Shown here piece after piece: positions 1 to 24,257 of a stretch of 64,000 nucleotides of DNA. How positions within the stretch are numbered: the stretch's first letter is position 1; each line of letters begins with the position of its first letter. The stretch comes from Mesostigma viride (Eukaryota > Streptophyta > Mesostigmatophyceae > Mesostigmatales > Mesostigmataceae). A model generated the notes under the pieces. It was not told where the DNA came from and ran no database searches. It saw only the letters and a program-made list of their open reading frames with translations. The stretch spans positions 2,546,107 to 2,610,106 of the forward strand of contig RPFO01000389.1 in the NCBI GenBank assembly GCA_009746045.1, given 5' to 3'. The position numbers and the translations under genes are program-made.

Positions 1-44
1 GGGGGGGGAGGGGAAATTTCAAAATTTTAACCCCGTTAAAAAGT

Positions 45-356
45 AATGAAAAACCGGGAGACCGTACACCTGTTTCTGGCTGCAGGCCGCGGCGCAGCTA
101 GATGAAGTGGAGCGCCGCGCTTGCCGCGCCGCCGCCGGTCGCGCCAGATTGAGAACGCGTTCAATTTTTGAATTCTAGGCCCTATTAGCACTGATTAGGG
201 GCCCTAATTAATTAAGATTAGGGCCTTATGTCATACTGGTTCACTTCATTGTCAGATAGGAACTGCGCTTGGTGGGTAATTAATGTTCTTGATAGGTTAG
301 AATCCAAGTCAGACCTGAACTAGGTGCCATGTAGGTGCCCTATAAATATAAACAAG
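45..356. repeat. Dispersed repeat, left part
   Basis: This stretch closely matches 46130-46418, with small indels. Both share a CTGGCTGCAGGCCGCGGCGC core and a run of TTAGGGGCCCTAATTAATTA-like sequence. It is continued by 1068-1190, which matches 46427-46540. At 46.4 kb the two halves are joined directly, so this copy has been interrupted by the element at 365-1059. No coding potential is recognisable. Confidence 0.8.
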
Positions 357-364
357 CTCCCGGG

Positions 365-1059
365 AAGGAGGGGGGCCGGGACATCCAGCCAAAACAGCAC
401 ACTCACTCGTGTGTCCGGCGCGGCACCTCAAACGTGGAGCGGACTCCAAAAAGTGTCCGGCGGCAGAATTTTTGCGACGGAGTGTACTCCAGTCGAAAAT
501 TTTAGGGCGGCGCGAAGAAAAAATTTTGTGGAGCTAACTCCTGGCGGTCCGGCCGCCTGGTTTTAGGAAAGGAGTGCGCTAGTGCGCTCTGGTGATCCGC
601 TAGCTCGGTCAGGCGTTTGATTTTAAAGTGCAGGTGTCCGCTTCGGCCCTGCTGTACTTACAACTTACGCTGAGAACTTACCAAGTATTGTTGATTCTAG
701 GAAGACGTATCGACTTTCAGGCAGGCGTCAGGTTGTTGTTGTTGATTCTGACACCGGACCTGGCGTCAGGCAATAGGCATCGAATTTCCGCCGGCTTGAC
801 GTCATTCTTCTACTTGGAGAATATGCTAATACTATCGCTTACTAAGAGCTTCTACTAAGAGATTCTACAAAAAGTGCCACGTGTCGTACAAGCCACGTAG
901 CACGTAGCACACTCCCAAGTCGGTCCGGCGCAGCTTTTTGACAGACTGAGTGCACTCCAGCACTTTTCACTTTGGCTGGCGCCGGGCGGCGCGGTACTCA
1001 AAAGGCCAAACTCTGGAGTACGCTCATGTACGATTTTAGGGGGGGATGTCCCCCCTCCT
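365..1059. mobile_element. Non-autonomous hAT-like DNA element (MITE), 695 bp
   Basis: The element begins AAGGAGGGGGG...ACATCC and ends GGATGTCCCCCCTCCT, so its ends are inverted repeats; the left one carries a CCGGG interruption. It is flanked by an 8-bp direct repeat CTCCCGGG at 357-364 and 1060-1067. The related locus near 46419-46426 has one copy (CTACCGGG) and no element, which is an empty site. An 8-bp duplication suggests the hAT superfamily, but TIR sequence alone does not prove it. No transposase is encoded. A partial relative is at 26054-26351. Confidence 0.75.
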
Positions 1060-1067
1060 CTCCCGGG

Positions 1068-1190
1068 CTCGAAGTTTACCTAACCCGGGCTGAACTTTCC
1101 CCGCAAAGTGTCAAACATGCAGAAAACCCTCGAAAAATTATTTATTCGCAATGTGATTTCAGCCACTACGGTATATGGGTTTTTTGCAAC
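1068..1190. repeat. Dispersed repeat, right part
   Basis: This continues the repeat begun at 45-356 and matches 46427-46540 (motif GAAGTTTACCTAACCCGGGC and onward). From 1191 to 1572 I see no gene or recognisable repeat, apart from a run of ten G at about 1315-1325. Confidence 0.8.
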
Positions 1191-1572
1191 AAAACACTTG
1201 GATTTTCTGCTAGCTCCCTATATGGTCGGAATTTTGAAACGGTTTGACGGACAAACTGATAGCACTTGGCGAGCTGAACCCAAATCTGCAGTCAAATTTT
1301 CGCAGGTACATAGAGGGGGGGGGGGTTGCCCGCAAGATGGTGCTGCCCCTAGGCACGGAAGTACATTGCTGCCGTCTGCCACCACTACAAGGCTTCGGCT
1401 ATCCAGCGCCGTGCCGTGCCAGTATCGCGTCGCGCCGGCCAACGACCCATTTCAGAAAACCGGAATTTTCCCATACACCAATATGCTCAAACGGTAGAGC
1501 TCGCTGAGACGATCATTTTTGCTCCCTAGGTCGACCCCTATCACCCTTGGGACCTCAGGGTTTTGCTAGGTA

Positions 1573-2711
1573 TGTCAAACGGACGCGCGCTATGTCATCC
1601 GGGCGCCCACTATGCACAAGACCGGTGACGTGCGCAAGGAATTTGTCTTCTACGCATTTTCGACAAAGGCTAGTGACCGGGGGGGACACTAGCACTTGCA
1701 GCATAAGAGCGGACGAAAGTGTACGTGCACGCGCGCCGGGCCAGGCACAGCTGGGCGCGCAGCACTGACTTGAGCGGACGGCAGCACAAGTGTGCAGCGT
1801 CGAGAGGATCATACGCGTGTTAGTGGACAGCTGGAGCTGAAGCTGGACTGCTGGACTTCAACAGCGCCGAGGCTATTGACAGGCCAGGTGTCTTTGTGGT
1901 GTAGAATAGCGGGTCAACGTTATGAGGACTGGACAGAAAATGGAAAAGGACAATTTGCGGTGCGGAGCCAGATCGCTGGAATGAATGCGAAATCGCTGGC
2001 AGCCCTAAAAAGGGATTTCTTCTAGAAAGGAACGATTAGACGCAATGTTTGCTGGGCCACTCACACGCAAGGTGTGAGCGTGCAGATTGTCTGAAGGATA
2101 TTATGCTTCGACCTTGCTGGACGTGACTCAATGTCGGACATTCCCAGGGACAGAAATGCCGGAGCCTCTAGGAGATGAGATCGGCAACAGGGTAGCAATT
2201 TAGATTTGTCGGGATGCCTTCCTGCTTTTGTTGGCATGTGTGGTAGAAAGCCAGGACGGCAACTGGAATGCGGTTTCTATTCGCATGGTTCAGGCAGCAA
2301 GATAGTTTTGGCATTCCTGGCTGGACTGACAAGTGTGGCGTGTGTCATGCGTGTGGCATGACGAATGGTTTGGTTCATAGTCGAAGAGGACTCTCACGCA
2401 GCGTGTAGTCTCTTCGAGTCTCTCGTTAGTGGCCTTCGTGTTTCTCCCTTTCCTTGGGAGCAAGGCCGGTAGCATGTCATGGAGCGCTGCCTAACTGCGG
2501 GCTCGTGAGCATGGAGTGCATCGATATTGAGACTATCAACGTGTTGTAATTGTATTAACTTTCTCAATAAACTCCGCATGTGCGGCTTCATCATCAGACT
2601 GTGCAAAGTGTGTGTTTTGAAAGCATTATTCTATAGCAGGGGAGGCAATAAGGTGGTTATCAGGCACGAGGGACAGTTCCTTGTCCTCGGCTGAGAGCCC
2701 TCCTTTCTTTA
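1573..2711 (+). repeat. Terminal block A1 of the gypsy element
   Basis: From 1580 the block matches A2 at a constant offset of 9445 bases. The first bases differ only by two extra A in A1. It ends in the pyrimidine-rich CCCTCCTTTCTTTA and then diverges from A2: A1 continues CTCGAAG, whereas A2 continues into B2. It contains an AATAAA and no convincing ORF. Confidence 0.9.
2566..2571 (+). promoter_or_regulatory. Candidate poly(A) signal in the A block
   Basis: AATAAA lies near the 3' side of A1, and the identical hexamer is present in A2 at 12011-12016. In an LTR-like element this would mark the transcript end within the downstream repeat, so the A2 copy is probably the functional one. Use is inferred, not shown. 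Confidence 0.45.
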
Positions 2712-3036
2712 CTCGAAGAGACTACCCGGTAGTCTGCTTCCTTCTGTTCGAAGCCAAGACGTTGGCTTTAGTGTTTAGCAACCATCAGCAGTACAGGGAA
2801 CGGCCTGGCTGACAGTTTGTAAAGGAAGTGTCTTGAGACAGATTTTAAGAAAATAGAACTAGCCAGAATTTGCTGGCTCTTGTCTTTTTCTGGCAGGCTA
2901 GTCGAGTCGTTATCCTTGACACCTGTTATAAAGCCTTTGGTTGTTGCTTCTTCTCAGCGAAACCTAGGCTTGTTGGTTCTTGTTTTGCCCATCGGTCAGC
3001 TGGTGCATGCCACTGACGCGAGCGCAGACTCGAGCC
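2712..3036 (+). other. 5' leader of the gypsy element
   Basis: This is untranslated sequence between A1 and the gag start. It opens with a near-perfect hairpin at 2719-2735 (AGACTACC, one C, GGTAGTCT) just where a tRNA primer-binding site would be expected. TTATAAAG at about 2925 is TATA-like. The hairpin could serve packaging or self-priming; neither is demonstrable here. Confidence 0.4.
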
Positions 3037-4815
3037 ATGGCAGATGCAAATAGAGCAGATGCCGACACGTCCGCTCCGGGGTCGAATGGCGGGATTCCTC
3101 CCGCCGTACCCGCAGTGGGTGAGAGTCGCGACCAAGAAGCGCCGCTGAGTATGGTGGCGCTGTTCGCGCAGATGCAAGCGCAGATGCAGCAACAGTCGCA
3201 ACAGTTGCAGCAGCAATTGGCGCTGCAGATGCGGGAAGTGACCGACAGATTGGTGGCCGTAGAGGGTCGTCATCTGCAGTCCACACCATGGGACGGGCAG
3301 GCATCGATGCCGGGCCCCAGTGGTGTTGCCGCGGAGCCGAGGGAGCGGGACCAGCCGCCAACCTCAGGTAATGCGGCGGGAAGGGCTTCGATGGAACCGG
3401 GGGTTTTGGCTGGGTCGCTAACCCAACACGACTTGCTTGGTGAGGCGGATGGTCAGCCACGGGGCGAGTATACGCTGGCGCCCAGGCGCCTGCCTTTCGA
3501 TCAAGCGCGAGACGGATTGCACGAGGAGAACGGGGCAGGGCTGGCGCGCGCGATGGACCCACACAGGGGTGCACCAGGACGCATGCTGCCAGGCGGGGCC
3601 TCAATTCCGTTTGGGCGAGGCGGTGGGGCGCTGACCGGCGGGTCGACTGCACGGTGGTCAAGTGTGCCAATCGGGCGCATTCCGCCCATGGAGGACATAA
3701 CCACGCCGCTGGCTTTCCGAGTACGGGAGGCAGCACGACCAAGCACGCTGGCGCAGGGACGCGCAGCTCAGCGACCGCCGGAGGATGCCGATGGGGTGCA
3801 GTACCCGCAAAGGGTGCGCCTCATACCGGAAGGCGCGAAGATGCCCACCCTACCACGGGTGGACATGCGCGAGAAGTTCTCCACAACCGGCAATCTGGCC
3901 ACGCTGGCGCAGGCCTACAACGCGTACAAGTCATGGATTGATCTGCAATACATGACTACGCAAGGCGCTGTAATGCATGAGTTTGTGATGAACAACATGC
4001 ATTTTTTCTTTCACGGCCTTACGCTGAGGCGAGTGGCTAGGCTGGTGGAGCAGTGGAGAGAGGTCTCGCTGTACACGCGTCACACGGACGTGTGGTTCGG
4101 CTTCGACGGGCGTGGCCAGCCCGACTATGACAACATCATGTATGGTGTCGACCCTGCCGAGGAACTGTGGGGCCTCCTTCGCCAGGAATACCCGGTGGAG
4201 ACCATCAAGGCAGAGCGTGAGTGGCGCAGTTTCAAGATAGCCGAGGGTGAAACCCCGGAGCAATCTTACGAGCGCCTCATGGAGTTCGCCGGCGAAGTGG
4301 AGGACTGGTCCGAAAAGCTGGCGTGTCAGAAATGGCTGCAAGCGCTAGGCTCCAAGGAGATGGAGCTGCCCACGCCGCCCAACGGCCAGCCGTGGCGATT
4401 GCGGTCACTGTGCATTGAGGTCAGGGCCATGATGCGACGACACGCGCAAGGCCGGATCTCGGTAAGCACGGTGGTGGCCGAGCTGCAGGCCAAGGTCGAC
4501 GCGCTGACCAAGGCCAAGTCGGGTGAGTCGTCTGCCACAAGACAAGCGCGCCCGCAAGGCGGCCACGGTGCTAGCAGGAACCAAGGGGGGTCTCGCAACG
4601 CCTCATCGCATGATGCAACCCAGGGTAACGCCGCTGGCGGCAACAAAGACGCTGCCGCCCCGACGCGAGCTGGGGGGGCACGTCCTCACAGACGGGTACT
4701 AGGACGGATGCGCGCAAATCGGGCTGCTTCCTTTGCGACAAGGATGGGCACCTTAGTCGCGAGTGTCCAAGCCGCTGCACGAAGCCGCATGGGGCAGACA
4801 CGAAGTGGCACCTGA
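3037..4815 (+). CDS. gag: Gag-like capsid polyprotein
   Basis: This is the structural protein of the retrotransposon, expected to build the virus-like particle. I chose the ATG at 3037 because its context GCCATGG is strong; an in-frame ATG lies upstream at 3007. The product is 592 residues. A glutamine/methionine-rich coiled-coil segment (QMQAQMQQQSQQLQQQ) lies near residues 45-65, followed by a Pro/Gly-rich linker. The middle region, roughly residues 280-490, has the Trp- and Leu-rich character of a retrotransposon Gag capsid (AEREWRSFKIAEGETPEQSY). The zinc knuckle expected at the C-terminus is not in this frame but in the -1 frame, right after a run of seven G at 4672-4678. The ORF then ends in off-frame sequence. 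Either -1 frameshifting or an indel links it to the next frame. Confidence 0.8.
   Translation: MADANRADADTSAPGSNGGIPPAVPAVGESRDQEAPLSMVALFAQMQAQMQQQSQQLQQQLALQMREVTDRLVAVEGRHLQSTPWDGQASMPGPSGVAAEPRERDQPPTSGNAAGRASMEPGVLAGSLTQHDLLGEADGQPRGEYTLAPRRLPFDQARDGLHEENGAGLARAMDPHRGAPGRMLPGGASIPFGRGGGALTGGSTARWSSVPIGRIPPMEDITTPLAFRVREAARPSTLAQGRAAQRPPEDADGVQYPQRVRLIPEGAKMPTLPRVDMREKFSTTGNLATLAQAYNAYKSWIDLQYMTTQGAVMHEFVMNNMHFFFHGLTLRRVARLVEQWREVSLYTRHTDVWFGFDGRGQPDYDNIMYGVDPAEELWGLLRQEYPVETIKAEREWRSFKIAEGETPEQSYERLMEFAGEVEDWSEKLACQKWLQALGSKEMELPTPPNGQPWRLRSLCIEVRAMMRRHAQGRISVSTVVAELQAKVDALTKAKSGESSATRQARPQGGHGASRNQGGSRNASSHDATQGNAAGGNKDAAAPTRAGGARPHRRVLGRMRANRAASFATRMGTLVASVQAAARSRMGQTRSGT
4672..4678 (+). 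promoter_or_regulatory. G7 tract at the gag to zinc knuckle/protease frame change
   Basis: The tract GGGGGGG is read GGG GGG G in the gag frame. Moving back one base here opens the frame that encodes the CCHC knuckle at 4725-4766 and continues to 5846. A homopolymer can act as a -1 slippery site, but its first repairing codon is imperfect (TGG for GGG). It is also a typical place for a one-base sequencing or mutational indel. Confidence 0.4.
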
Positions 4816-5846
4816 TGAACAAGTGTCCAGCCGCGGGCATCAAGACGGTCCACTTCGCCGAGATGGCGGGCAAGACCGACTCGATGGAAGCCCAGGTGGC
4901 TGCCATCAAGCATGGTGAGGAGGCGACGGCGCCCCCCAACCAATTCGAGACGGTGTACCGGGAGGACCCATTCTGGGCGCCCATGCCGGGTGACGTCGAG
5001 ATCAACGCTGCGGAGGCTACCAAAGGCAAGCAGGCACGCAGCCCGCTTTCTTTTCAGCAGGCACCCATGTTGCCTGCCGGGCAGTTGCCCGCGTCCTTTT
5101 CCATGCCGCTGGCTGGGGTGCAATCTGCTTTTGAGCATGCGAACCCTGCTGGGCTGGAGCAGCGTAGGCGATTGGCGCCTGTGTACCCAATGCCGTTCAT
5201 TGTGGACGTACCCATGTTTTCAGCACGGCAGGTGGTCGACACCTTCGGGCAGAAGGGGGTTGAGTGGCTGGGGTCGGTTGTGTCCGAGATCCAGTTGTTC
5301 GCAGATGGGCATGATGTGCGCACCTTGCGCAATTCTGAGTCCGTCACCTACGGGCGCCAGCCGGTAGAAGCCGCAGTGCCCGTGGTGCAAGCGGGAGTGG
5401 TCAGCACAAGTAGCCAGCAGCGCACTAGTGCAGTCCCCCAGGTTCCATACCCCAATGGTGAGCCGTCCATGGCGTTCCAAGCAGTTGGAGCCTGTGGAGA
5501 TGTAGTATGGAGCGACATGGTGACATGTCCGTTGGTTGGCGCAGTCAAGCTTGATAGCGGTGCTCAGCCGCTAGTCATCAGCACGGACTTGGCCACCATG
5601 CTGAACCTGACCTACGAGAACGGTGGCTTAGTGGAAAGCCCCGTGTCTGTGTCAGGTTGGCAGGGTCCGGCTAGTAAGCCGTACGCTATGACGGCGGTTA
5701 AAGTCAACGTGATTTTCAATCCGTTGCGCGCCTCTAGCATGACCACCGTGTCCGCGTATGCGCTGGTGGTCAACATTGAAGTGTGGATATTCCGCACTAC
5801 TCGGGGTGGATGTCCTTGCTCGCGCCATGGTTCAGGTGGACTATAG
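4677..5846 (+). CDS. pro: Nucleocapsid zinc knuckle plus aspartic protease (-1 frame)
   Basis: This segment is open in the -1 frame relative to gag and has no need of its own ATG if frameshifting occurs; the first ATG in frame is at 4815. It starts with a perfect CCHC knuckle at 4725-4766 (CFLCDKDGHLSREC, CX2CX4HX4C), which binds template RNA in this family. Near its end is an aspartic protease active site, KLDSG, with the Asp codon at 5553-5555. The protease's second conserved block (ALLGVDVL) is not in this frame but in the next one, after a +1 change near 5775-5790. The gag and pol frames are the same, so this block of about 1.1 kb is bounded by two opposing shifts. That is equally consistent with two small indels in a formerly continuous gag-pro-pol. 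Confidence 0.7.
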   Translation, partial: GTSSQTGTRTDARKSGCFLCDKDGHLSRECPSRCTKPHGADTKWHLMNKCPAAGIKTVHFAEMAGKTDSMEAQVAAIKHGEEATAPPNQFETVYREDPFWAPMPGDVEINAAEATKGKQARSPLSFQQAPMLPAGQLPASFSMPLAGVQSAFEHANPAGLEQRRRLAPVYPMPFIVDVPMFSARQVVDTFGQKGVEWLGSVVSEIQLFADGHDVRTLRNSESVTYGRQPVEAAVPVVQAGVVSTSSQQRTSAVPQVPYPNGEPSMAFQAVGACGDVVWSDMVTCPLVGAVKLDSGAQPLVISTDLATMLNLTYENGGLVESPVSVSGWQGPASKPYAMTAVKVNVIFNPLRASSMTTVSAYALVVNIEVWIFRTTRGGCPCSRHGSGGL

Positions 5847-8800
5847 GGCGGAGGAGGCATCTTACATCCCTGATTGGGATGGGGCTGGCCTGAAGCGGGC
5901 CAGCGTGCCGGTCTCATGCTTCAGTTCTTCAGCCGGGGCTGCACGCCTCAACCCTTCCGCGGCTGCGGGCGTGGTGGAGGTCAGCATGGTGGAGGTACGG
6001 GCGGCGGGCTCATCGGCGTGGGACAAGCATCGGACGGTGCTGCCCCAGCCAACGGCGAGCATTGCCAAGATGCGCACGCAGTGGTCGCTGGATGCTGTGA
6101 CGTCCACGCGGCAGCTGGCTATGCGCAAGCGGGTAACTGAAGCCGTCATCACCATTCCTCAGATGGCCAGCCATGGCCTCACTTTGCTGCAACCGGGTGT
6201 CTCGGAGGCCCAAGGTAATTTTTCTGCTGCAATCTTACCGCAGGCCCCTGATTTTGCCAAGGGTGCGGTAGTGTTGGAACTGTTTGCGGGGATCGGAGGG
6301 GGCATTGCAGGCTTTTTGGCCGCAGGCGGCGTGTGCCGTAAACTCATCGCGGTAGAGCCATCGCACAAGGCGCGTCAGGTGTACTTCAGTCACTGTGGCG
6401 TGTTGTCGCGAGAGTATCCCGCGCAGTTTCCGCCATCAGCATGGCGTGACCCGTTTGGGGAATGTCCTCAAGATATCCGAGCCATCGGTGAGGTGCAGGT
6501 GCAGCAGTTGTTGCGCAGGCATCATGCCATCGACTTGGTAATTGCGGGTTGGGAGTGCCAGGGCCTGAGCCAGGCAGGGCAAGGGCGGGGGCTAGCCGAT
6601 CCGCGTAGCGCGCTGTTCTGGGAACTGTTGCGTGTGGTGGGACTGTTGCAGTCGCGTCAGCCCCATCCGCCTGCGTATCTGTTTGAGAACGTTGTGGCGG
6701 GTGACAGCCCACATCAGGCGGTGCGGGAGGACTGGGCTACAATCGTGGCACTCCTGGGGGAGCCCATCGTGTGTGACAACGCAGGGCTGGGTGGGCTCAC
6801 GCATCGTTTGCGTGCCTATTGGACCAACGTGGCGTGTGCGACCGATGTGCAGGCGGTCTTGGGGGCCGTAGCAAGGCAGCATCCGAGTGTGTCTGCGGAG
6901 GTAGCATTGCCTTCCCACCTAGTCACGCAGAAGGTGGATAGCGAGGATCGCCCACCGTATGCACGCGTCAACCGGGTCGGGAGCCCCATGTGTGCACTGC
7001 CGACCCTGGTCAGTTACCAAGGGTCGACAGCATACCGTGATCGGGGTAAGGGTCTCGTTTGGGACACTACCACCGGTCTGTTGGTGCAGCCACCCGCAGA
7101 ATTTCGTGAGGCCAGCATGGGTTTTCATGTCGGGGCCTCGGCGCTGCCGGGCGTGCTCGAGAGTGAGCGCTGGTCTTTGATAGGCCAGGCTATGTCGGTG
7201 TTGCAGGTCGGGTATGTGCTGCTTGCATCGGTTGCCGTGCGCCAGTCTGGGGGGGCGTCCCCAGCCAATCCGCCTCAGCAGGTTGAGGCGCGCGCAGCCA
7301 AACTGAAGCGCCCTGCAGCGACGGGGACTTCATCAGCATGGGGGTGGCGTCTGCGACAGGTGTGGACTATCATTCTCATGACCGCCCTGCTGACCAGCAC
7401 CGTGCTGGCCGGCGAGCCCACGCTGCATCGGGTAATACACCGTGCGGCACGCGAGGCTCCGGCGGTGGGTGTCACACCAGGCGTGGCAGCCTTTTCCTTG
7501 TTCCACGACGATGCGGCTAGGGCGCCGCATCTTGAGGCACATGCGGTAGCTGTGGGTGATCCCGCGGATACGCACCCCTGGGCTATTGGCGAACACCTTT
7601 CTGATGCGCAGCGCTCAGCCATGCTAAAGTGGCTAGGCACTGCAAGGGGGGCCTTCGCTTTCACAAGTGATGAACTGGGGTGTTTCAATGGTGGGACCAT
7701 GCGTGTTCCATTGGACACTGACACCCCTTTGTTCCGACGCCAGCATCGCCTGAGTCAGGCCGAGTTGGATTTTGTAGCCGAGCAATGCAAGGAGTTAGAG
7801 GATGCCGGTATCATCAGGCAATCTTCCTCCAGCTATGCCGCTGCCGTTGTCGTTGCGCCCAAGAAGGACGCTATCACCGGGGCATGGACGGGTATGCGCA
7901 TGGCCACCGATCTGCGGTTGCTGAATGCACACACACCCGTGGACCGTTACCCCATGCCACGTGTGGATGATGTCCTGGATAAGATATCTCCTCATGTGAA
8001 GTTTGTGTCCTCGCTGGACCTGCGTAGCGGCTTTCATCAGATCGCAGTTGCGCCGGAGGATCAGCGGAAGCTTGCATTCTGGGGGGGCGGCAATTTGTAT
8101 GAGTGGGTGCGCATGCCCTTTGGGCACCGCAACGCTAGTGCTGTTTTCCAACGAGCTATGGACAAAGTGCTTGCAGGTCTTCCTTTCGCCGCTTGTTACA
8201 TTGATGATGTAATCGTCTTTAGCGCGACATTTGAGGAGCACCTGGCGCACTTGGAGCAGGTTCGCTTGGCTCTCGAGGAGCATAATATGCGGCTGCACCC
8301 TGAGAAGTGCAAGTTCGCCCAGCGGACCCTCTCATTCCTTGGTCATCAGATTGTGCCGGGTGGCCGGACGCCTGATGCCGCCAAGGTCGAATCCATTGTG
8401 CAGGCCGCCGTACCCACGGATGTCTCAGGGGTGCGGGCGTATTTGGGTTTGGCTGGCTATTACCGAGGTTACATTGAGAACTTCAGCAGCAAGGTGAAGC
8501 CCTTGACCGAGTTACTCAAGAAGGGGTGCGTGTGGGCGTGGGGTCCCGCACAGCAACGCGCCATCGAGACAATCAAGCAGGAGCTCACGTCGGCCCCGAT
8601 TCTGCGCGCCCCTGACTATGCTTTGCCGTTTGTGTTATATACCGACTGGTCCAAGGTAGGACTGGGTGCGGTCTTGGCGCAAAAGGATGGTGATGGGCGC
8701 GAGCACGTTATTGCTTATGCTAGTCGCAGCAACAACCCAGCGGAGAGCCGGTATTCTTCCTATGAGGGGGAGGCACTGGCTGTGGTGTGGGCCATCAAGC

Positions 8801-10848
8801 ACTTTCGCCCGTATTTAGTTGGGCGCGTGTTTACTCTGGTGACAGACCACCAGCCGCTTCAGTGGCTAATGACCAACACCAACCTGACGGGTAAGCTCGC
8901 CCGATGGGCCATGATTATCCAGGAGTACCACATGACCATTGTGCATCGGGCCGGCAAGGACCATGTCAACGCCGATGTGCTATCCCGATACGCCATGCCT
9001 ACCACTGTTGACCACACTGGAGCCCGGGCCATGGGTGCCGAGGGCTCGTCGGGTTCTGTGGTCTTTGTGAACGCTGCTGGGTATGCGGCCGACGATGAGG
9101 AGGAGGCGTGGTGGCGCAGTGTCGAGTACTCTGTGGCGGACTTCGGCATCAGCGACGACCCGGTGCGGCCGTCGCCATTCACGCCATCCAAAGCTGTGTG
9201 CGCTATGGAAGAGGGTAGGTCTCTGTCCTTTGACATTGATCCTTCTCTGCAGCAGCTGATCGCTGTGCAGGCTCTCTTAGCGCGTAGCTCTCTTGCTGAT
9301 TGCTACACCGCTGATATCTGGCTAGATGGTCGAGTTTTGGAGCAAGTGCAGGGTGCTGTCTTGACTCCTACTCCAGTCGATTGGACTCCTGCTCAGAAGG
9401 CGACGGAGTTGAACAGGGTGCAGCACAGGGCTGCAACCTATGGTTGGGAAGATGGGGTTTTGTACAAGCTGTTGGGCAAGCGTAGGGTGGTCGTCCCACC
9501 GCCTGACAAGCGCGTTGCTATAGTGCAGGCGTACCACGAGCGGTATGGTCACTTGGGTGGCAATCGCACGCTCAGCCTCGTACGGACCAGCTATTGGTGG
9601 AATAACATGCGACACACAGTGGCCCAGGTAGTGGCCAGCTGTGTCCCGTGTGCTCGAACCAAGGCTAACTTTAGCGCAGATCATGGTGCCAAGGAGCTGA
9701 TGTCGCTTCCCATCAAGGGCTTGTTTTATCGCTGGCACGTCGATCTGTGCGGGCCGTTTCAGGAGAGCCCTGACGGCAACCTCTATGTCATGGTATGCGT
9801 GGAGAGCTTTAGCAAATGGGTTGAGTTGATCCCCATTGCTGACAAGCATGCCGCTACCACAGCGAAGCATTTTGCAGACATCATCACCAGGTTTGGGGCT
9901 CCCGCGGAGGTAGTCACGGACCAGGGTGGTGAGTTCAGGGGTGAGTTCCAGGAGTTGCTGGATGGATGTCTTATTGATCACCGTCGCACTTCTCGGGAGC
10001 ATCCTCAGGCCAATGGTTTGGCTGAGAGATTGGTGCAGACCGTCAAGCAGGCGCTGCGCAAGTGGAGCCTGCAGGTGCCGGAGTCGGCCAGGTGGGATCG
10101 CGAGTTGGCATGGATTGCCATGGGTTATCGCATGTCTCCCCAGGAGTCTCTCGCTACCTTCTCCCCGTATTTCCTTCTGTTCGGGCGTAATCCTCTTTTG
10201 CCTACGGAGGCACAGGTTGCGCACCCCGAACCCATGGCCTTCGACAACGCTCAGCAATTTTTGGTTGAGGTGCTGGCCAGGGCAGAGACTTTTAAGAAGG
10301 TCATGCCCATCGCGATGAACAACTTGTTCATTGCTCAGCACAGGGACTCCCTGCGTTACGCTCAGCGCCGGGGGGGCGCATACATGGCTCGCCAGCTGCG
10401 GTTTAGGCCAGGGCAGTATGTTTTCCTGCGCACTCAGCTGAAGCACACTTTGGATGTGGAGGCGGGGCCCACCATTTTGCGCATTGTGGCTATCAAACCA
10501 TCGGGAGTGGCAATTTTGGAGGGCGCCGACGGGAGCCGTACGACAGACAACCTCAGCAATCTCAGTCCCTGCTCACTGCCCAATTTGGTCCACGACCTCC
10601 AACCGCACACATCTCGCCGAGTCAAGGACGCCCAGTGTCAGGTTTGTCACCGGGTCGATCAGGCGGAGTCCATGTTATTGTGTGATCAGTGTAACTGTGG
10701 TTGGCACATGCAGTGCTTGCAGCCCGTGGTCACCAGCATTCCGGAGGGGGATTGGTTTTGTCCAGTGTGCACCGCTGCGCAGTTTACCTCCCGCAGCTTG
10801 ACTGCGGTCACCGCTGCCCTTGTCTTGGTACGATCGCTGTCTTCGTGA
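5758..10848 (+). CDS. pol: Pol polyprotein: protease end, C5 DNA methyltransferase, RT, RNase H, integrase, PHD finger
   Basis: This 1696-residue polyprotein begins with the end of the protease (LLGVDVLARAM, about residues 14-24). A cytosine-5 DNA methyltransferase follows, about residues 168-490. Motif I is LELFAGIGGG near 172. Motif IV is GWECQGLS with the catalytic Cys at 267, where Glu replaces the usual Pro. ENV has its Glu at 310, and HRLR at 349-352 stands for motif VIII. A hydrophobic segment (about 528-552, IILMTALLTSTVLAG) precedes a gypsy reverse transcriptase with YIDD at 814-817. RNase H (YTDWS, Asp 963; YEGEAL; TDHQPL) and an HHCC integrase follow. The integrase has its zinc region from about 1259 and DDE residues at 1329, 1388 and 1423. 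A PHD finger (C4HC3, about 1627-1674) closes the protein. No chromodomain is present. All key catalytic residues are intact. Confidence 0.93.
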   Translation: MRWWSTLKCGYSALLGVDVLARAMVQVDYRAEEASYIPDWDGAGLKRASVPVSCFSSSAGAARLNPSAAAGVVEVSMVEVRAAGSSAWDKHRTVLPQPTASIAKMRTQWSLDAVTSTRQLAMRKRVTEAVITIPQMASHGLTLLQPGVSEAQGNFSAAILPQAPDFAKGAVVLELFAGIGGGIAGFLAAGGVCRKLIAVEPSHKARQVYFSHCGVLSREYPAQFPPSAWRDPFGECPQDIRAIGEVQVQQLLRRHHAIDLVIAGWECQGLSQAGQGRGLADPRSALFWELLRVVGLLQSRQPHPPAYLFENVVAGDSPHQAVREDWATIVALLGEPIVCDNAGLGGLTHRLRAYWTNVACATDVQAVLGAVARQHPSVSAEVALPSHLVTQKVDSEDRPPYARVNRVGSPMCALPTLVSYQGSTAYRDRGKGLVWDTTTGLLVQPPAEFREASMGFHVGASALPGVLESERWSLIGQAMSVLQVGYVLLASVAVRQSGGASPANPPQQVEARAAKLKRPAATGTSSAWGWRLRQVWTIILMTALLTSTVLAGEPTLHRVIHRAAREAPAVGVTPGVAAFSLFHDDAARAPHLEAHAVAVGDPADTHPWAIGEHLSDAQRSAMLKWLGTARGAFAFTSDELGCFNGGTMRVPLDTDTPLFRRQHRLSQAELDFVAEQCKELEDAGIIRQSSSSYAAAVVVAPKKDAITGAWTGMRMATDLRLLNAHTPVDRYPMPRVDDVLDKISPHVKFVSSLDLRSGFHQIAVAPEDQRKLAFWGGGNLYEWVRMPFGHRNASAVFQRAMDKVLAGLPFAACYIDDVIVFSATFEEHLAHLEQVRLALEEHNMRLHPEKCKFAQRTLSFLGHQIVPGGRTPDAAKVESIVQAAVPTDVSGVRAYLGLAGYYRGYIENFSSKVKPLTELLKKGCVWAWGPAQQRAIETIKQELTSAPILRAPDYALPFVLYTDWSKVGLGAVLAQKDGDGREHVIAYASRSNNPAESRYSSYEGEALAVVWAIKHFRPYLVGRVFTLVTDHQPLQWLMTNTNLTGKLARWAMIIQEYHMTIVHRAGKDHVNADVLSRYAMPTTVDHTGARAMGAEGSSGSVVFVNAAGYAADDEEEAWWRSVEYSVADFGISDDPVRPSPFTPSKAVCAMEEGRSLSFDIDPSLQQLIAVQALLARSSLADCYTADIWLDGRVLEQVQGAVLTPTPVDWTPAQKATELNRVQHRAATYGWEDGVLYKLLGKRRVVVPPPDKRVAIVQAYHERYGHLGGNRTLSLVRTSYWWNNMRHTVAQVVASCVPCARTKANFSADHGAKELMSLPIKGLFYRWHVDLCGPFQESPDGNLYVMVCVESFSKWVELIPIADKHAATTAKHFADIITRFGAPAEVVTDQGGEFRGEFQELLDGCLIDHRRTSREHPQANGLAERLVQTVKQALRKWSLQVPESARWDRELAWIAMGYRMSPQESLATFSPYFLLFGRNPLLPTEAQVAHPEPMAFDNAQQFLVEVLARAETFKKVMPIAMNNLFIAQHRDSLRYAQRRGGAYMARQLRFRPGQYVFLRTQLKHTLDVEAGPTILRIVAIKPSGVAILEGADGSRTTDNLSNLSPCSLPNLVHDLQPHTSRRVKDAQCQVCHRVDQAESMLLCDQCNCGWHMQCLQPVVTSIPEGDWFCPVCTAAQFTSRSLTAVTAALVLVRSLSS

Positions 10849-10863
10849 TGGGGCCGGTCGCCA

Positions 10864-10876
10864 GCGAGGGGGGGAA
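10864..10876 (+). promoter_or_regulatory. Candidate polypurine tract
   Basis: GCGAGGGGGGGAA sits 15-28 bases after the pol stop and directly abuts block B1. In LTR elements the polypurine tract primes plus-strand DNA and immediately precedes the 3' LTR. Its position implies that the reverse-transcription repeat starts at B1, not at A2. Confidence 0.55.
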
Positions 10877-11017
10877 TCATGGGACAGGTCCTCGCCCACC
10901 CCACAGGGCATGCAGTTAAGGCAGGCACATCAGCTCAGCTCATTTGGGTTTTACCAAATTAAGCTGAGTGGCCAGCCGCCATGGTGGCGCCGGAGATTGT
11001 GGCACGCAGACGCGACA
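10875..11017 (+). repeat. Block B1 of the split terminal repeat
   Basis: This 143-bp block is identical by eye to 12156-12298 at offset 1281. It contains an imperfect hairpin (CTCAGCTCATTTGG ... CCAAATTAAGCTGAG) and ends CGCGACA. It is followed by two bases (GC) and then the TGTCA start of A2, so the B1/A2 join reads GACA-GC-TGTC and is palindromic. Confidence 0.9.
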
Positions 11018-11019
11018 GC

Positions 11020-12156
11020 TGTCACGGACGCGCGCTATGTCATCCGGGCGCCCACTATGCACAAGACCGGTGACGTGCGCAAGGAATTTGTCTTCTACGC
11101 ATTTTCGACAAAGGCTAGTGACCGGGGGGGACACTAGCACTTGCAGCATAAGAGCGGACGAAAGTGTACGTGCACGCGCGCCGGGCCAGGCACAGCTGGG
11201 CGCGCAGCACTGACTTGAGCGGACGGCAGCACAAGTGTGCAGCGTCGAGAGGATCATACGCGTGTTAGTGGACAGCTGGAGCTGAAGCTGGACTGCTGGA
11301 CTTCAACAGCGCCGAGGCTATTGACAGGCCAGGTGTCTTTGTGGTGTAGAATAGCGGGTCAACGTTATGAGGACTGGACAGAAAATGGAAAAGGACAATT
11401 TGCGGTGCGGAGCCAGATCGCTGGAATGAATGCGAAATCGCTGGCAGCCCTAAAAAGGGATTTCTTCTAGAAAGGAACGATTAGACGCAATGTTTGCTGG
11501 GCCACTCACACGCAAGGTGTGAGCGTGCAGATTGTCTGAAGGATATTATGCTTCGACCTTGCTGGACGTGACTCAATGTCGGACATTCCCAGGGACAGAA
11601 ATGCCGGAGCCTCTAGGAGATGAGATCGGCAACAGGGTAGCAATTTAGATTTGTCGGGATGCCTTCCTGCTTTTGTTGGCATGTGTGGTAGAAAGCCAGG
11701 ACGGCAACTGGAATGCGGTTTCTATTCGCATGGTTCAGGCAGCAAGATAGTTTTGGCATTCCTGGCTGGACTGACAAGTGTGGCGTGTGTCATGCGTGTG
11801 GCATGACGAATGGTTTGGTTCATAGTCGAAGAGGACTCTCACGCAGCGTGTAGTCTCTTCGAGTCTCTCGTTAGTGGCCTTCGTGTTTCTCCCTTTCCTT
11901 GGGAGCAAGGCCGGTAGCATGTCATGGAGCGCTGCCTAACTGCGGGCTCGTGAGCATGGAGTGCATCGATATTGAGACTATCAACGTGTTGTAATTGTAT
12001 TAACTTTCTCAATAAACTCCGCATGTGCGGCTTCATCATCAGACTGTGCAAAGTGTGTGTTTTGAAAGCATTATTCTATAGCAGGGGAGGCAATAAGGTG
12101 GTTATCAGGCACGAGGGACAGTTCCTTGTCCTCGGCTGAGAGCCCTCCTTTCTTTA
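11020..12156 (+). repeat. Block A2 of the split terminal repeat
   Basis: This is the second A copy, matching 1580-2711 at offset 9445. It starts TGTCACGG where A1 has TGTCAAACGG. At its end it passes directly into B2 (CTTTA then ATCATGGG), in contrast to A1, which passes into the internal leader. Confidence 0.9.
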
Positions 12157-12298
12157 ATCATGGGACAGGTCCTCGCCCACCCCACAGGGCATGCAGTTAA
12201 GGCAGGCACATCAGCTCAGCTCATTTGGGTTTTACCAAATTAAGCTGAGTGGCCAGCCGCCATGGTGGCGCCGGAGATTGTGGCACGCAGACGCGACA
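12156..12298 (+). repeat. Block B2, right end of the gypsy element
   Basis: This is the second B copy, identical to B1. It ends GCGACA at 12298 and is followed by GGTA, matching the four bases before A1. The flank from 12303 to 12472 shows no gene. Confidence 0.9.
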
Positions 12299-13085
12299 GG
12301 TATAGCGCCTACATGCTAGGTAGGTAGGGTCCAAGGGCCAGCTTTTGGAAAATTTCAGCATGGTGTCTTTTATTTTTGTTTTGAGTACCCCCCTTAATTG
12401 CCTCCGGACCCAACTTTCAGCTAAAAATGACCGGTTCGGTTTTAACTTAAAATCCGTATAGACCGGGCCGGGTTAACCCTTGGATGGTGTCCAACTCGCG
12501 CCTAAAAATAGGCTTGAGTTGCACCTTGCATGGTTAAGTCCACAAACCAACCTAAAAACAATTTAGTGTCCATACTGGGACCAAAGCACACACATATAGG
12601 GACTTACTTGGGGGTCATGTCATTGGTCATGTTGCAATGTCCTACGGGTGCTAAATATAGCACCACCCTCAGGGGGGTGCGCGAGTGCGAGAAAAACACA
12701 CATGTATATTGCATTATTACACCTGAAAACAATTCCGTTGCTCCCAATATTTTAAAGGCAGTTGCTTGGGTATCCAGGCATGGCTTCTGCACACTGACAT
12801 GATGGGTTGTCCCAGGGACCCAGATGCACGGTCTAAAAATAACTCGCGCCTAAAAATAGGTGCCAGTTTGGCTGGTGACATTTGCTAGCATTACAAGGCA
12901 GGGAACTCACTCGCTAGCATAATAAAACATCAACCATGGTGAAACATGGATGGTCTCATCTATTCCAGCCTATAAACAACTGGGTAGGCTATAAAACATT
13001 CAAAAACCATCCCGGCATGGTGGTACACGGGCGCGCCCCGGGCGCGGTAAGGCCAAAGGCCATGTCAACACTAATGCTTGCATTC

Positions 13086-15497
13086 TCAAGGGGTGGCTCG
13101 CGCCTGCCCCTTCTTCTTGATGTTGGTACGCCTCGGCCTGCCCACCGCCGGCGTGCTTGGGCCTGCCTCAGCACGGGTGACCACGCCGTCGCGCGCAGCC
13201 CACTCCTTGCCGAGACGGCCGCGCTGGGTGAGGCCGAGTGTGGCGCGCTGGCCGATGTGACCCGTGTCGAGGCCCTCCACCTCCTCCTCATGCCACACGC
13301 GGAAGCAGTCATACTCGCCCTTGTTGCACAGGGCTATGTCGCACTCCCTGCACAAGAACACCGTGCGCTTCCTGTTGCCCGCTGCGGTGCACACGGCGCA
13401 CTGCGCTTGATTGGTGAAGGGGATGTATTCCACTTTGTGCAAGCCGCTCCTGCGGCCAGCCTTCCCTGCACCCACCGGCAGCACTGCCGCCAGCTCGTTG
13501 ATGCGCACCCGGGTGCCAGCGCCCCACTTGTTGCATGGATCAGCTCATGTGCCAGCAGCTAGCTTGAGGAAGCCGGCGTGGGTCAGCGCGACCTGGCCCT
13601 CCTGCTCCGCGATCATGACGTGCATGAGGTAAGCGTCGGTGGCTGTGTGTGCCATGTGACCCGTGAACAGGCGGTGCCACCAGATCTTGGTAACGGACGC
13701 CTTCTGAATGTCGTACTCGGCGCAGAGCTGGTCGTTTTTGTCGGTGGCGTGCATGCAGTCCCAGTAGTTGGTGATGCTGCTGGGCGCTGGCACCGTCACG
13801 CGCTCGGACGTGCGACCGCTATGGCGGCTGACCTGGGCCTCGGTCAGGCCCAGACCCTTGGACAGGGTCCAGACTTGCTTCTTGTCCATCCAGCACGTGA
13901 GGACGAGGCCCTCCTTGTTCACCGCCCAGGCGTAGTCGCCCTGCTTGGCCGCCTTGCCCTTGGGCATGAGCGCGCGCACCTCCTCGAATGGGAGGTCCTT
14001 GCGGTTGGTCATGATGGTGCCCACCACCTGGTGGCCCATTGCTGCGCACTCCTCTACCGCGGCGCGGGAGGTGTACCAGCGATCCATCGCCCACTTGGTC
14101 TTGTGGGGCCACTTGGCCACCATACGCTTGACGACCTCGAACGTGTGGTTGGCCTGGGGCAGCTTGTCATATGTCTCGACGTGATACAAGTAGCCGGTTG
14201 GCCAATCGTTGTCCCCGAACTGCTTGATGTGGAACTCCTCCGGCTTGTTGGGGTTGAAGACTGTGATGGGAGACAGCCGGTGGCGGGTGGGGATGGAGCG
14301 CTCATCCAGCGAAGCACGCTGCCCTGGCTTGACATACTTCTTGTACGTCTCGTTCAGGTGGCGCTCCAGCCAGTCGCACTGCCACAGCCGGTGCTCACGT
14401 GTCTGCTTGTCCGTGGGGCGCTCGGAGGTTGGCGCCAGGTGAAGGAAGCGCGTGATTTGGTCAAAGCGGTATTTGGACATGTGCCTTTGCAGCATGGGTG
14501 GCTCAGCCCCCCCGATTGGCTCTGATGAGAAATAGTCTGCCCGGGACGGCAGCTTGAGCAGGGACATGGTAAAGATGATGCCAATGAACTTGCCCAGCTC
14601 GTTCAAGGTCAGATCCTTCCAATCCCTTGAGCCACCCTTGCCCGCCTCCTTGAGTGCAGCGTAGAGGTTGGTCTGCTGCACAATGCGCTCCAGGACATCC
14701 CGCTGCGTCCAGAACAGCCTGAACAGCTGCTCAGGGTCGTTCTTCTGGAGCTGCTCCTCGCTGCATGAGGTTCTGGGGTTTGGCTTTGCCCTCCAATCGC
14801 GCAGGCAGTGTAAGAGAGGGAAAAGAAGCGAGATTGGGCTTCCCGACACCGAAAGTCCACTCGTTGCCACCCCTCGAGCCCTGCCCAGTCGTGTCGTCCT
14901 CCTCGCCATCACTGTCATCTGCCTGCACCGGAATTTCCAGCAGCGGCTCCTCCTCGGCCTCGCCCTCCGACTCGTCATCGACATGTGCTCGAGCAGCACG
15001 GCCCCTTTTCTTGGCCGGCTGCCTGGCCGGAGCCTTCCTCGCCTTGCCCTTGCCCTTGCCCTTGCGTTTCTTGACAGGCGAGAATGCAATATCCTCGCTA
15101 GAGGCCGACTCCGAGCTGGTAGGTGCAGATGCGCCATCGTCGCCTGCGCTAGGTGCCTGGCCGACGTCGGCGCTTTTCTCACTGCCATTGGCAGAAATGT
15201 TGCCCTCCTTGTCGCTAACCTGCTTCTCAACATCCGTAGGGGCCGTGACAACCCTAAAGTCGAAAATCTGCGCCTTTGTTTAAGGTCGTATTTCTTTGTG
15301 TCACCTGTGAACAGGCACTTCGCCAGCGTCCCGCACCTCGCCACTGACACTACTTCCCCCGAAATCCTCTCATTTTCATGGTCGGCTCCGAATTTCTCGA
15401 TAGCCCACTCTAGCCCAAATACTTTCGGAGGCACTGACACCTTGATACCCCTTTTTAGCCTAAAATCTGACATACTGCCACTAGGAACGTCCGCCAT
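13086..15497 (-). pseudogene. piggyBac transposase (in-frame stop, two opposing frameshifts)
   Basis: This transposase would cut and paste the element at TTAA sites. The core is readable from 15497 to 13545. The three expected Asp residues are at about 398 (SLDERSIP), 472 (AMDRWYTS) and 538 (WMDKKQVW), matching the order in the piggyBac family. A stop (TGA, 13545-13547) separates this core from the same-frame C-terminal cysteine-rich domain (CAVC...CREC...C...CFRVWH type, about 13400-13310) and a basic tail. In the N-terminal third, from about 15267 to 14765, the reading frame is wrong. The acidic, NLS-bearing sequence typical of these proteins (KKRKGKGKGKARK, then DDSDGEEDDTTG) is in the -1 frame, and the frame returns near 14765. 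The copy is therefore probably not functional as read. Indels from assembly are possible. Confidence 0.88.
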
Positions 15498-15747
15498 GGT
15501 CTACCGCCGCAATCGTCGTCTTCATCGTCCTTCCACGTTTTTGTCAATTTTTGAGGCGCGCGGACAGCTGTCAACCAGGGTACCCCCCTGTACTGTAACC
15601 GTTAATTAGTCCCTGCAGACTTGGTCTAAACATAGTGATGTCTGGTATCAGGGCGTAGAGCACATCTAGCTCTAGCAGCAGACCTAAAAATATCACGGAA
15701 ATGTCTACTGGCATTCGCGCCGCGCCGCTTCCCATCTCGCGCCTATT

Positions 15748-15787
15748 TGTAGGCGCGAGTTGAACTCGCGCCTACAAATAGGCGCGA
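15748..15787. repeat. Subterminal hairpin repeats of the piggyBac element
   Basis: Two adjacent palindromic units, CTCGCGCCTATTTGTAGG-CGCGAG type, sit just inside the right TIR. Related single units lie inside the left TIR (12496-12513, 12842-12860). Subterminal repeats are known transposase-binding features in piggyBac elements; the role here is inferred. From 15806 to 16337 I see no gene; a 43-bp segment near 16018 recurs near 16290. Confidence 0.7.
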
Positions 15788-16337
15788 ACACCATCCAAGG
15801 GTCAAAATGTCGTCTCGCGACATTTTGACGTTAGCGACTCGATCGAGCTTGGCTGGCGCGTGGTGGGACGAACTTTCACGACTTGCCACCTGTCGGCTCA
15901 CCGAAACTGGGTCGTAGTGACGGTCGGCTCACTCGGCTTGACGGCTTTCGTCTTTTCGCCGTTGCTCTCGCCGTGTTCGACTTTCCACCTTTTTCGACTT
16001 TCTACCTGTCGGAACGACGAAACTGCGTTAGCGGCCGGACAGGTTCGCCTGAAGTTATTCCCCTGCACGTGGCGGCTGGCCGGCTGCCCATATACCAACC
16101 TAGGACGATCGTCGTAGGTTGGTACATCCAAACTGCGTCGTCTACTGAAGTGACGGTCCAAAGACTGACGGGCGAAGATACTTTTGTTGCTGTTAAAATT
16201 TTCCGTCTTGAATCCATGTTGATTATTAAAAGGGACCAATAGACGTTAGGTTTGAAACTGACCAAAGTTTCTAAGTCGTCGAAAGTACGACGAAACTGCG
16301 TTAGCGGCCGGACAGGTTCGCCTAAAGTTATCAGGAA

Positions 16338-16771
16338 TGATTCCGCCAGCGCATCGTGGCCGGCCGCAACGGGGTCGGCGGGGGGGAGAGGGGGGGGGGA
16401 CCTCCGGGTGGGTGGGGGGGTGGGGGGTGGGGGGGTGGGGGGTGCGGGGGACAGATCCACCAGTGCATGGGACCTCGCTGAGGGGGTGGGGGTGGGCCGG
16501 GGGACCTCCAGGTGGGTGCCGTAGTGGGCACGGGGGGCGGGGGATCCGGGGGCGGGGGATCCGGGGGCGGATCCGCCAGCGCATCGTGGCCGGCCCACGC
16601 TGAGGGGCCGGGGGGGGAGAGGGGGGGGGGCACCTCCGGGTGGGTGGGGGGGTGGGGGGCCGGGTGGGGGGTGCGGGGGGCAGATCCGCCAGTGCATCAT
16701 GGAGGGCCCTCGCTCAGGGGGGTGGGCCGTGGGGGTGGGGGGTACCTCTGGGTGGGCGCGGGGGGCGGGAA
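16338..16771. repeat. G-rich minisatellite, left block
   Basis: Degenerate units of about 112-117 bp carry the core GATCCGCCAGTGCATCATGG and long G runs with GGGTGGGTGGGG. Units are recognisable at about 16344, 16456, 16573 and 16685. The G runs (up to 9-10 G) could form G-quadruplexes. Long ORFs here are proline-rich translation artefacts. Confidence 0.8.
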
Positions 16772-16774
16772 CAC

Positions 16775-17071
16775 GCGGCGGAAGACGAGCCACTGGAGGA
16801 GGACGGTGGAGACGGGTACAAAGCCCTTGATCCTATGCATGAAGGAGACGGGGACGTAACGGAGGGAGGTGTTGCCGAGGACGAGACTGGCGGAGAAGAC
16901 GAGGACTAGAGGCAGGAGCCGGCGGAGGAAGAGGCTTCGCCGGAGGCGGACTTTGGGGACGACTTGCACCCAGTCGACGAGGAGGACGCAGCCGATGCTG
17001 CCCAGCGCCAGGTGGACGGTGACAAGCAGCATCGGGCAGGGCAACTGGAGGACCTTGAACATGTACTTAGT
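16775..17071 (-). pseudogene. Exon of a triose-phosphate/sugar-phosphate translocator (DMT superfamily), isolated
   Basis: On the minus strand this non-repetitive island encodes about 99 residues resembling plant sugar-phosphate/nucleotide-sugar translocators. The pattern is FKVLQLPCPMLLVTVHLALG, then a hydrophobic helix (GSIGCVLLVDWVQVV), a basic RRSLFLRRLLPLVLVFSAS turn, LGNTSLRYVPVSF, and MHRIKGFVPVSTVLL. The last parts correspond to the family's conserved LSN/LGN...Y...VSFIQ.LKA..PV block. The segment is bounded on both sides by C-rich (minus strand) minisatellite. An AG precedes the exon (ACTAAG at 17068-17073) and a GT follows it, so the repeats could be introns. No other exon is seen nearby. 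It may be a captured gene fragment or part of a gene with exons beyond recognition. Confidence 0.6.
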
Positions 17072-17462
17072 TGGGGGGGGGGGGGGAGGGGGGGGCACCT
17101 CCGGGTGGGTGGGTGGGTGGGTGGGGGGTGCGGGGACGGATCCGCCAGTGCATCATGGAGGGCCCTCGCTGAGGGGGGTGGGGGTGGGGGGACCTCCGGA
17201 TGGGTGGGGGGCGCGGGGGGCGGGGATCCCGCATACTATGACGTCTCGCTGCATGAGGCGGGGGGGGGGGGGGGGGGGCACCTCCGGGTGGGTGGGGGCC
17301 GGGTGGGGGGTGGGGGGTGCGGGGGGCAGATCCGCCAGTGCATCATGGAGGGCCCTCCGGCTCGCTGAGGGGGGTGGGGGTGGGGGTGACCTCCGGGTGG
17401 GTGGGGAAGCGTGGGGGGTGGGGGATCCCGCATATACTATGACGTCTCGCTGAGGGGAGAGG
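17072..17462. repeat. G-rich minisatellite, right block
   Basis: This continues the same array with units near 17137, 17225, 17328 and 17427. Two of them carry a variant core, CCCGCATACTATGACGTCTCGCTG. The array has an 11-G run near 17073 and an 18-G run near 17261. No gene is visible. Confidence 0.8.
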
Positions 17463-19019: not shown

Positions 19020-19613
19020 GGGCACATGCCTGGCTGGTGTGGGTGTTGGGTAGTTAGTTGGTTCGGTGATTGTGTTGTTGAGTGGTTAGGTGGTTAGGTG
19101 GTCGTGTAGCTGGGTGATTGGTTGTTTGGTTGTTTGATTGCCCAGAGAGCCTTGGGTGGGAGGCTTGGGCTATAGATGCTTCAAGGGATGCCTAGGCGTG
19201 GGTGGGTTCAATGGCAGGTGGCTGGCTTATAGGTGGATGCCTTGGTAAATGGCTGGCTGCGTAGGTGGGAGCACAGGCAGTTGGAGAGGGTGGGTGGCTG
19301 GCTGGCTGGTCATGGTGGATGAGTGCGAGGGCGGTCGGTTATTGGCAGATGGCTCGGTGGCTGGGTGATGATAGGCTTTGGGGACTTTGAAGTGGGTGTT
19401 TTGTTGGATGCATGAGTGAAACGCACGGCTTTGAGGGTGGTGGGTTGGTGGTTGGTTGGTTAGGGATGTGTGTGGGTGGGTGGGTTGGTGGGTGGGCCAT
19501 TGGTGGTTGGTGGCTGGTGGATGTGTAGATGACTAGATGTGGGTGGGTGGGTGGGTGGGCGAAGGGACGGGTAGATGGACGGGTGGGCGCACAGATATGG
19601 ATGCGTGGATGGG
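19020..19613. repeat. TGG-rich degenerate minisatellite, left flank of palindrome array
   Basis: Irregular GGTTGGTGGGTGG, GGATGG and GGCTGG steps run to the first palindrome. The same composition resumes at 24262-24830, so the palindrome/Helitron complex appears to have been inserted into, or to have grown inside, this tract. Confidence 0.75.
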
Positions 19614-23611: not shown

Positions 23612-24257
23612 TACGCATTACTTTTGCATACTTGCAAGTATGCAAAAGTAATGCGTATTGCATTACTTAACTAAAATTGGGCCGCGTGGGGAAATCCGGC
23701 GTTCCGCACACACCGCTCGTTACCGAGGTGACTCGATTAATTACGACTCGGCTATTCCCAGCCTCGCGCCGTAATTCCTATTTCGACTTGGCCTACCCGG
23801 CCTCCGCCAAACATAGAAATCCACAAATATTTCGACTCGGCCTCCCAGGCCTACCCGCCGCAAATATTTCCGTGCCTCCGAGAGGATTCGAACCCGGTAC
23901 CCCAGGAGCGAACGCCAATCTTAGTTAAGTAATGCAATACGCATTACTTTTGCATACTTGCAAGTATGCAAAAGTAATGCGTATTGCATTACTTAACTAA
24001 AATTGGGCCGCGTGGGGAAATCCGGCGTTCCGCACACACCGCTCGTTACCGAGGTGACTCGATTAATTACGACTCGGCTATTCCCAGCCTCGCGCCGTAA
24101 TTCCTATTTCGACTTGGCCTACCCGGCCTCCGCCAAACATAGAAATCCACAAATATTTCGACTCGGCCTCCCAGGCCTACCCGCCGCAAATATTTCCGTG
24201 CCTCCGAGAGGATTCGAACCCGGTACCCCAGGAGCGAACGCCAATCTTAGTTAAGTA
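23612..24257. repeat. Palindrome-separated 326-bp repeats, rest of palindrome 3 and copies 3-4
   Basis: The interrupted palindrome resumes at 23612 without loss of bases. It is followed by unit 3, a complete palindrome (23921-24000) and unit 4. The array ends with only the first 11 bases of a palindrome (24247-24257). Units 3 and 4 look identical to units 1 and 2. Confidence 0.9.

Follow-up and report, generated by a model that had tools for sequence, protein, structure and literature searches.

A recently inserted Ty3/Gypsy-type retrotransposon with split direct repeats in Mesostigma viride and its proposed integration from a circle

Split repeats, self-priming and circle cleavage in described elements

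Split direct repeats in the order A1-B1-A2-B2 are carried by the tyrosine-recombinase retrotransposons of the PAT, Ngaro and VIPER kinds (PMC4157794). A preliminary description of the locus reported here cited such repeats as known from tyrosine-recombinase elements, and the suggestion that they are confined to these is incorrect: the legend to Figure 4 of de Mendoza et al. 2018 (PMC5890265) presents KnitGypsy-Dnmt3 of Klebsormidium nitens, a Gypsy element combining DIRS-type repeats, Gypsy domains and a DNMT. In the self-primed Ty3/Gypsy elements Tf1/sushi, the RNA 5' end is complementary to the primer-binding site (PBS), over 11 nt in Tf1 (PMC7175516). In vitro, the integrase of PFV, a foamy virus, cleaves each strand of its palindromic LTR-LTR junction after CA to give cohesive ends that carry a 2-nt 5' overhang (PMC1180852), and HIV-1 integrase cuts its own 2-LTR palindrome as a tetramer (PMC1905944).

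Here, we report a retrotransposon in a 64,000-nucleotide stretch of Mesostigma viride DNA (contig RPFO01000389.1; the whole stretch is called the window) and compare it with these systems. It has in common with KnitGypsy-Dnmt3 the Gypsy domains, the DNMT in the pol ORF, the DIRS-like A-coding-B-A-B repeats and a streptophyte algal host, whereas the legend's account of the latter gives no PBS, polypurine tract (PPT), palindrome, target duplication or mechanism, and PHD is absent from the main text (PMC5890265). A pol protein of K. nitens with a methyltransferase, P0035, shows 52% identity along the integrase query and 39% along 259 methyltransferase residues; for K. nitens, the position of the methyltransferase upstream of RT is read from this protein alone. 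The repeat scheme together with Gypsy and DNMT domains is already published for Klebsormidium, and the window element belongs to a known kind. No mechanism for the K. nitens layout was found in the open literature searched, where the name KnitGypsy occurs in a single paper and where none of 10 papers listed out of 363 mentions Mesostigma viride; the explanation proposed below, i.e., a self-priming site, a fused attachment palindrome in U3 and a seamless circle joint, is new in that no precedent for it was found there. The PAT, Ngaro and VIPER elements also share the split direct repeats, but they use a tyrosine recombinase, in place of which the window element carries a DDE integrase, and it also shows a target duplication. 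The likeness to Tf1 lies in the PBS complement, which is 15 nt long in the window element, counted from a predicted RNA start; Tf1 reportedly has conventional complete LTRs, whereas the integrated ends of the window element sit within the reverse-transcription LTR. As for foamy virus and HIV-1, we also propose here that processed ends arise by cleavage of a palindrome after CA on each strand, but the palindrome there consists of juxtaposed cDNA ends in a circle, whereas the window element encodes it in U3.

Repeat layout, coding content and class

Self-BLAST of window positions 1-20000 recovered two pairs of direct repeats, A (1579-2711 and 11024-12156, 1133 bp) and B (10875-11018 and 12156-12299, 144 bp), both at 100% identity; the single base by which the blocks overlap at 2711 and at 12156 comes from neighbouring A's that match by chance. 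Base-by-base reading gives the order shown in Table 1, and the four-block A1-internal-B1-A2-B2 layout of the preliminary description is confirmed with essentially the same boundaries, as is its assignment of A1 and B2 as the integrated termini, marked by TG at 1573, CA at 12298 and a 4-bp GGTA duplication. Chance falls far short of explaining the repeats; by simple arithmetic, the 4-bp GGTA duplication by itself is only a 1-in-256 match at that offset. B1 ends with CA at 11017 and is followed by the spacer GC and then by the TG of A2. A1 starts with TGTCAAACGG and A2 with TGTCACGG, a 2-nt difference placed 5 nt from the end, which is the sole difference between the A copies. The start of A (1573-1620) is made of imperfect tandem units of the TATGTCA..CGG type, of which the first is spaced like its neighbour in A1 and not so in A2; this spacing may have a bearing on the 2-nt difference. 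The window holds one copy of the retrotransposon, with no further copies of A or B (the longest other matches are 18 bases or less) and no empty site, i.e., joined flanks, elsewhere in it. The element was inserted recently.

Table 1 Features of the retrotransposon, in window coordinates
Feature	Position	Strand	Basis
Target-site duplication, left copy, GGTA	1569..1572	+	Read from sequence
A1, left integrated terminus, begins TGTC; most of U3 (832 bases), R and U5	1573..2710	+	Self-BLAST; right boundary set by PBS
Predicted R region; TGTAA at 2545, AATAAA at 2566	2405..2590	+	Start (about 2405) and approximate end inferred from PBS complement and signals
Internal region	2711..10874		Base-by-base reading
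Self-priming primer-binding site (predicted), exact reverse complement of 2405-2419	2711..2725	+	Sequence
gag-like ORF (stop to stop)	2968..4815	+	Named from position; without Pfam match
ORF with zinc knuckle and DSGA protease-like motif	4629..5846	+	PF00098, E 8e-4, below curated cut-off; protease motif by eye
pol ORF: C5 DNA methyltransferase, RT, RNase H, integrase H2C2 and rve core, PHD finger	5743..10848	+	Pfam
Polypurine tract GAGGGGGGG, adjoining B1	10866..10874	+	Read from sequence
B1, opening part of U3 in the 3' reverse-transcription repeat	10875..11017	+	Self-BLAST
Palindrome GACA-GC-TGTC, fused integrase ends (predicted) within U3	11014..11023	.	Sequence and relatives
Spacer GC	11018..11019		Base-by-base reading
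A2, begins TG	11020..12155	+	Self-BLAST
A2/B2 joint, seamless join of the predicted right and left cDNA ends	12155..12156	+	Sequence and PBS position
B2, right integrated terminus, ends GACA	12156..12298	+	Self-BLAST
Target-site duplication, right copy, GGTA	12299..12302	+	Read from sequence

The domain order RT-RNase H-integrase in pol is the Gypsy order, and the full DDE integrase that had been noticed earlier is indeed there, with D1334, D1393 and E1428 all present at the 35-residue spacing. As to Ty3/Gypsy traits, the DDE integrase with a short target duplication (GGTA) is present, and self-BLAST shows no pair of complete identical LTRs at its integrated termini; the element is a Ty3/Gypsy-type retrotransposon. 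The C5 methyltransferase is located upstream of RT (PF00145, E 6.6e-11). On a placement in the Dnmt3 clade, PDB offers weak matches: 4onj, labelled simply DNA methyltransferase, at 5.4e-5, and HaeIII/HhaI and DRM2 near 1e-3. The usual motif in methyltransferases is PCQ; the window element has ECQ at position 6547 (pol residue 269), and among the best 120 of 1116 pol homologs a simple pattern found E at this site in 29, P in 25 and no match in 66. By BLAST, 81 of the same best 120 match the window methyltransferase and 92 match the PHD region. The named sources of the listed pol homologs are mostly green algae (Klebsormidium, Closterium, Monoraphidium, Gonium, Tetrabaena, Cymbomonas and Chara), with a few animal names, one bacterial MAG and many unnamed metagenomic proteins also among them. 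The gag-like, protease-like and pol ORFs are in different frames and overlap at 4629-4815 and 5743-5846, with a shift in one direction that the second overlap reverses; several homologs, in contrast, form one long ORF, and the frame changes may reflect either programmed shifts or decay.

Other repeated DNA is seen in the window. A piggyBac-like element (12473-15805) begins about 170 bases to the right of the retrotransposon; it has a transposase ORF on the minus strand (13545-15500, PF13843), 18-bp inverted ends of the TTAACCCTTGG type and, at 15737-15787, a 51-bp palindrome whose two arms are 25 nt long. The stretch 19614-24257 is taken up by repeat units in tandem, about 326 and about 1110 bp long and 99.8-100% identical, with an 82-bp perfect palindrome at 19614-19695, and two LINE copies of 99.1% identity are located side by side (28781-31353 and 32034-34599). 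A LINE of the window has 99% identity, over 58% of the query, to a gene model of Mesostigma viride, which places the DNA in this streptophyte alga or a very close relative.

Predicted reverse-transcription signals and the palindrome in U3

It had been suggested in the preliminary description that B-A is the reverse-transcription repeat because the PPT abuts B1, and this is supported by an independent signal at the other end of A, i.e., the predicted self-priming site. The 15-base PBS complement is the sole inverted repeat of at least 10 bp (arms within 900 bases) in 1573-3020. The chance expectation for a 15-base boundary word in A is 7e-7; when A was shuffled, one of a first set of 5000 shuffles gave a 15-mer match, and in 40,000 further shuffles the longest match was 13. 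Of the 15 PBS pairs, 13 (2405-2417 with 2713-2725) are present when 2405-2780 is folded to minimum energy. Because the G-run adjoins B1 and the PBS complement adjoins A1 exactly, the cDNA LTR is likely B-A and not A-B; A-B as a conventional LTR, a candidate in view of its TG...CA ends, is rejected on the same two positions. The predicted cDNA ends are 2710 on the right and 10875 on the left, and a blunt join of the two is exactly 12155|12156, with nothing lost or gained. Since B2 is located beyond the poly(A) signals of A2, it would be absent from the RNA under the B-A model and would have to be remade in each cycle, as by circle formation.

When contigs of prokaryote genomes were scanned with an integrase alignment, relatives were found on five of them (L001-L005), presumably eukaryotic contaminants. 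The integrase identity to the window element is 49% in L001, 48% in L002 and 43% in L003, whereas L004 and L005, 99.4% alike, end 63 and 154 bases after pol, before the palindrome region, and were excluded from the count of palindromes. In L001, the methyltransferase and the RT-integrase part lie in two ORFs with a single in-frame stop (3489-3491) between them. Two protein scans of viral contigs gave no relatives; 13 viral-contig loci from two pattern scans (L006-L018, two of them on one contig) are treated as chance matches, none of which encodes a relative (tblastn, E 1e-3). Priming by a tRNA was rejected: of three PBS words of the initiator-Met type, none occurs in window 1573-3020 or in those parts of L001-L003 that were searched, and a further pattern, which was very loose, matched several places and is uninformative. 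Inverted repeats of 13 bp in L001 (7239/7415) and 12 bp in L002 (4711/5061) are too weak to serve as evidence of self-priming, and L003 has none of at least 10 bp.

The integrated ends of the window element fall exactly at GACA-GC-TGTC, and GACAGCTGTC is found downstream of a G-run in three of the five relatives (L001, L002 and L003), the palindrome of L003 being perfect over 20 bp. The chance expectation of the palindrome per 250-base stretch is 1.1e-4 to 2.7e-4. Its distance from the start of the G-run is 146 bases in the window, 111 in L001, 59 in L002 and 58 in L003; please note that G-runs are common and that the PPTs of the three relatives were chosen as the nearest run of at least six G upstream of the palindrome. 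In the alignment of the four sequences after the PPT, little is conserved besides the palindrome, and MAFFT left that of L001 unaligned with the others. The central GC is identical in all four, so that it is probably templated within U3 rather than remade through end joining. The B1/A2 palindrome had been said to look like an end-to-end junction; the joint that resembles a junction of cDNA ends is instead A2/B2, and B1/A2 looks like fused integration ends templated inside U3.

Proposed integration from a circle and the rival explanations

We consider it probable that the element, a recent insertion, is a Ty3/Gypsy retrotransposon that primes itself, carries its integrase attachment ends fused as GACA-GC-TGTC inside U3 of a B-A LTR and integrates from a circle. 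Judged from the PBS complement and the poly(A) signals, the RNA would begin at about 2405 in A1 and terminate after these signals in A2; its first 15 nt would prime at 2711-2725, with the primer 3' end paired with 2711. Reverse transcription from the PBS and the PPT would then give a linear B-A-int-B-A cDNA, and joining of its ends would give a 2-LTR circle and create the A/B joint. In the palindrome of the 5' LTR copy, integrase would cleave CA-GC-TG 3' of CA on each strand and thereby produce in one step two processed ends with a 2-nt 5' GC overhang, the same ends as ordinary 3'-processing yields. The opened circle would insert as A-int-B-A-B with a 4-bp target duplication, i.e., the observed form, which would be able to renew itself, whereas a cut in the other LTR copy would give A-B-A-int-B, without a 3' R; besides this dead form, A-int-B and A-B would be expected now and then. 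The best reading of our analysis is that integrase opens the circle at a built-in fused site, much as foamy-virus integrase does on 2-LTR junctions in vitro. The earlier idea of a 2-LTR circle opened at the A/B boundary is kept in part: circle opening explains the layout, but the joint that resembles a junction of reverse-transcription ends is A2/B2, not B1/A2.

It may also be that the palindrome is normally a promoter element (TGACAGSTGTCA presumably resembles the binding sites of TALE homeodomain proteins) and that an ordinary B-A-int-B-A element had a dead-end 2-LTR circle opened once at this U3 palindrome, an explanation we regard as unlikely. It agrees with the single copy in the window and with the second GACAGCTGTC there at 15563, outside the retrotransposon and near the piggyBac-like gene. 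Every one of the four G-runs (window and L001-L003) has a TG 3-5 bases further on, so that the relatives may have a conventional LTR start nearby; in the window, however, the A2/B2 joint places the left cDNA end ahead of this TG, and CTTT rather than CA stands at the predicted right end. The contigs of two relatives are also on its side, since L001 is a closed contig int-B-A with identical 127-bp ends, and L002 reads unbroken from pol via B and A into a gag-like ORF; both give B-A-int paths without an A/B branch, which would be expected to interrupt the two contigs if A-int-B-A-B copies were numerous in those species, so those species fit B-A-int-B-A copies or 1-LTR circles better, and the two contigs argue against the A-int-B-A-B layout being universal among the relatives. 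The 2-nt difference between the starts of A1 and A2 counts against the circle model as well. A single accident, however, does not sit well with integrated ends that coincide exactly with the palindrome and show TG...CA as well as the 4-bp duplication, nor with the same split layout described for K. nitens elements (PMC5890265). A family trait rather than a one-off is favoured by us, because the K. nitens element has the same repeat scheme and the palindrome appears at the same place in the three of five relatives that reach it.

Two other explanations concern the origin of the split repeats as such. Mobilisation by a tyrosine recombinase in the PAT/Ngaro manner, with the integrase idle, would account for the same repeat order, A1-int-B1-A2-B2 (PMC4157794), but none of the 11 ORFs of at least 150 aa that the element contains has a Pfam match to a tyrosine recombinase (E 0.01 or better), all three DDE residues are present and so is the target duplication; we hold it to be highly improbable. 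An assembly artefact, recombination between tandem elements or a nested insertion might mimic split repeats, and with A and B copies 100% identical a collapse of reads is conceivable. This seems improbable as well, as the A1/int edge coincides with the PBS and the int/B1 edge with the PPT, and as the TG and CA ends are each bordered directly by a matching GGTA.

Retroviral 2-LTR circles are often considered dead ends (PMC5314604), and reports of their use exist (PMC4372172). On the broader proposal we are evenly divided, i.e., that there is an algal Gypsy lineage in which circular cDNA is the obligatory precursor, the fused palindrome is templated in U3, the ends of reverse transcription and of integration are uncoupled and split repeats arose with a DDE integrase independently of tyrosine-recombinase elements. 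If integration from a circle is true, a retroelement obliged to use it would be a natural test system for whether a DDE integrase is able to use circles, and DIRS-like split repeats alongside a Gypsy pol would be accounted for. It also suggests that annotation tools seeking paired complete LTRs would miss such elements or set their boundaries wrongly.
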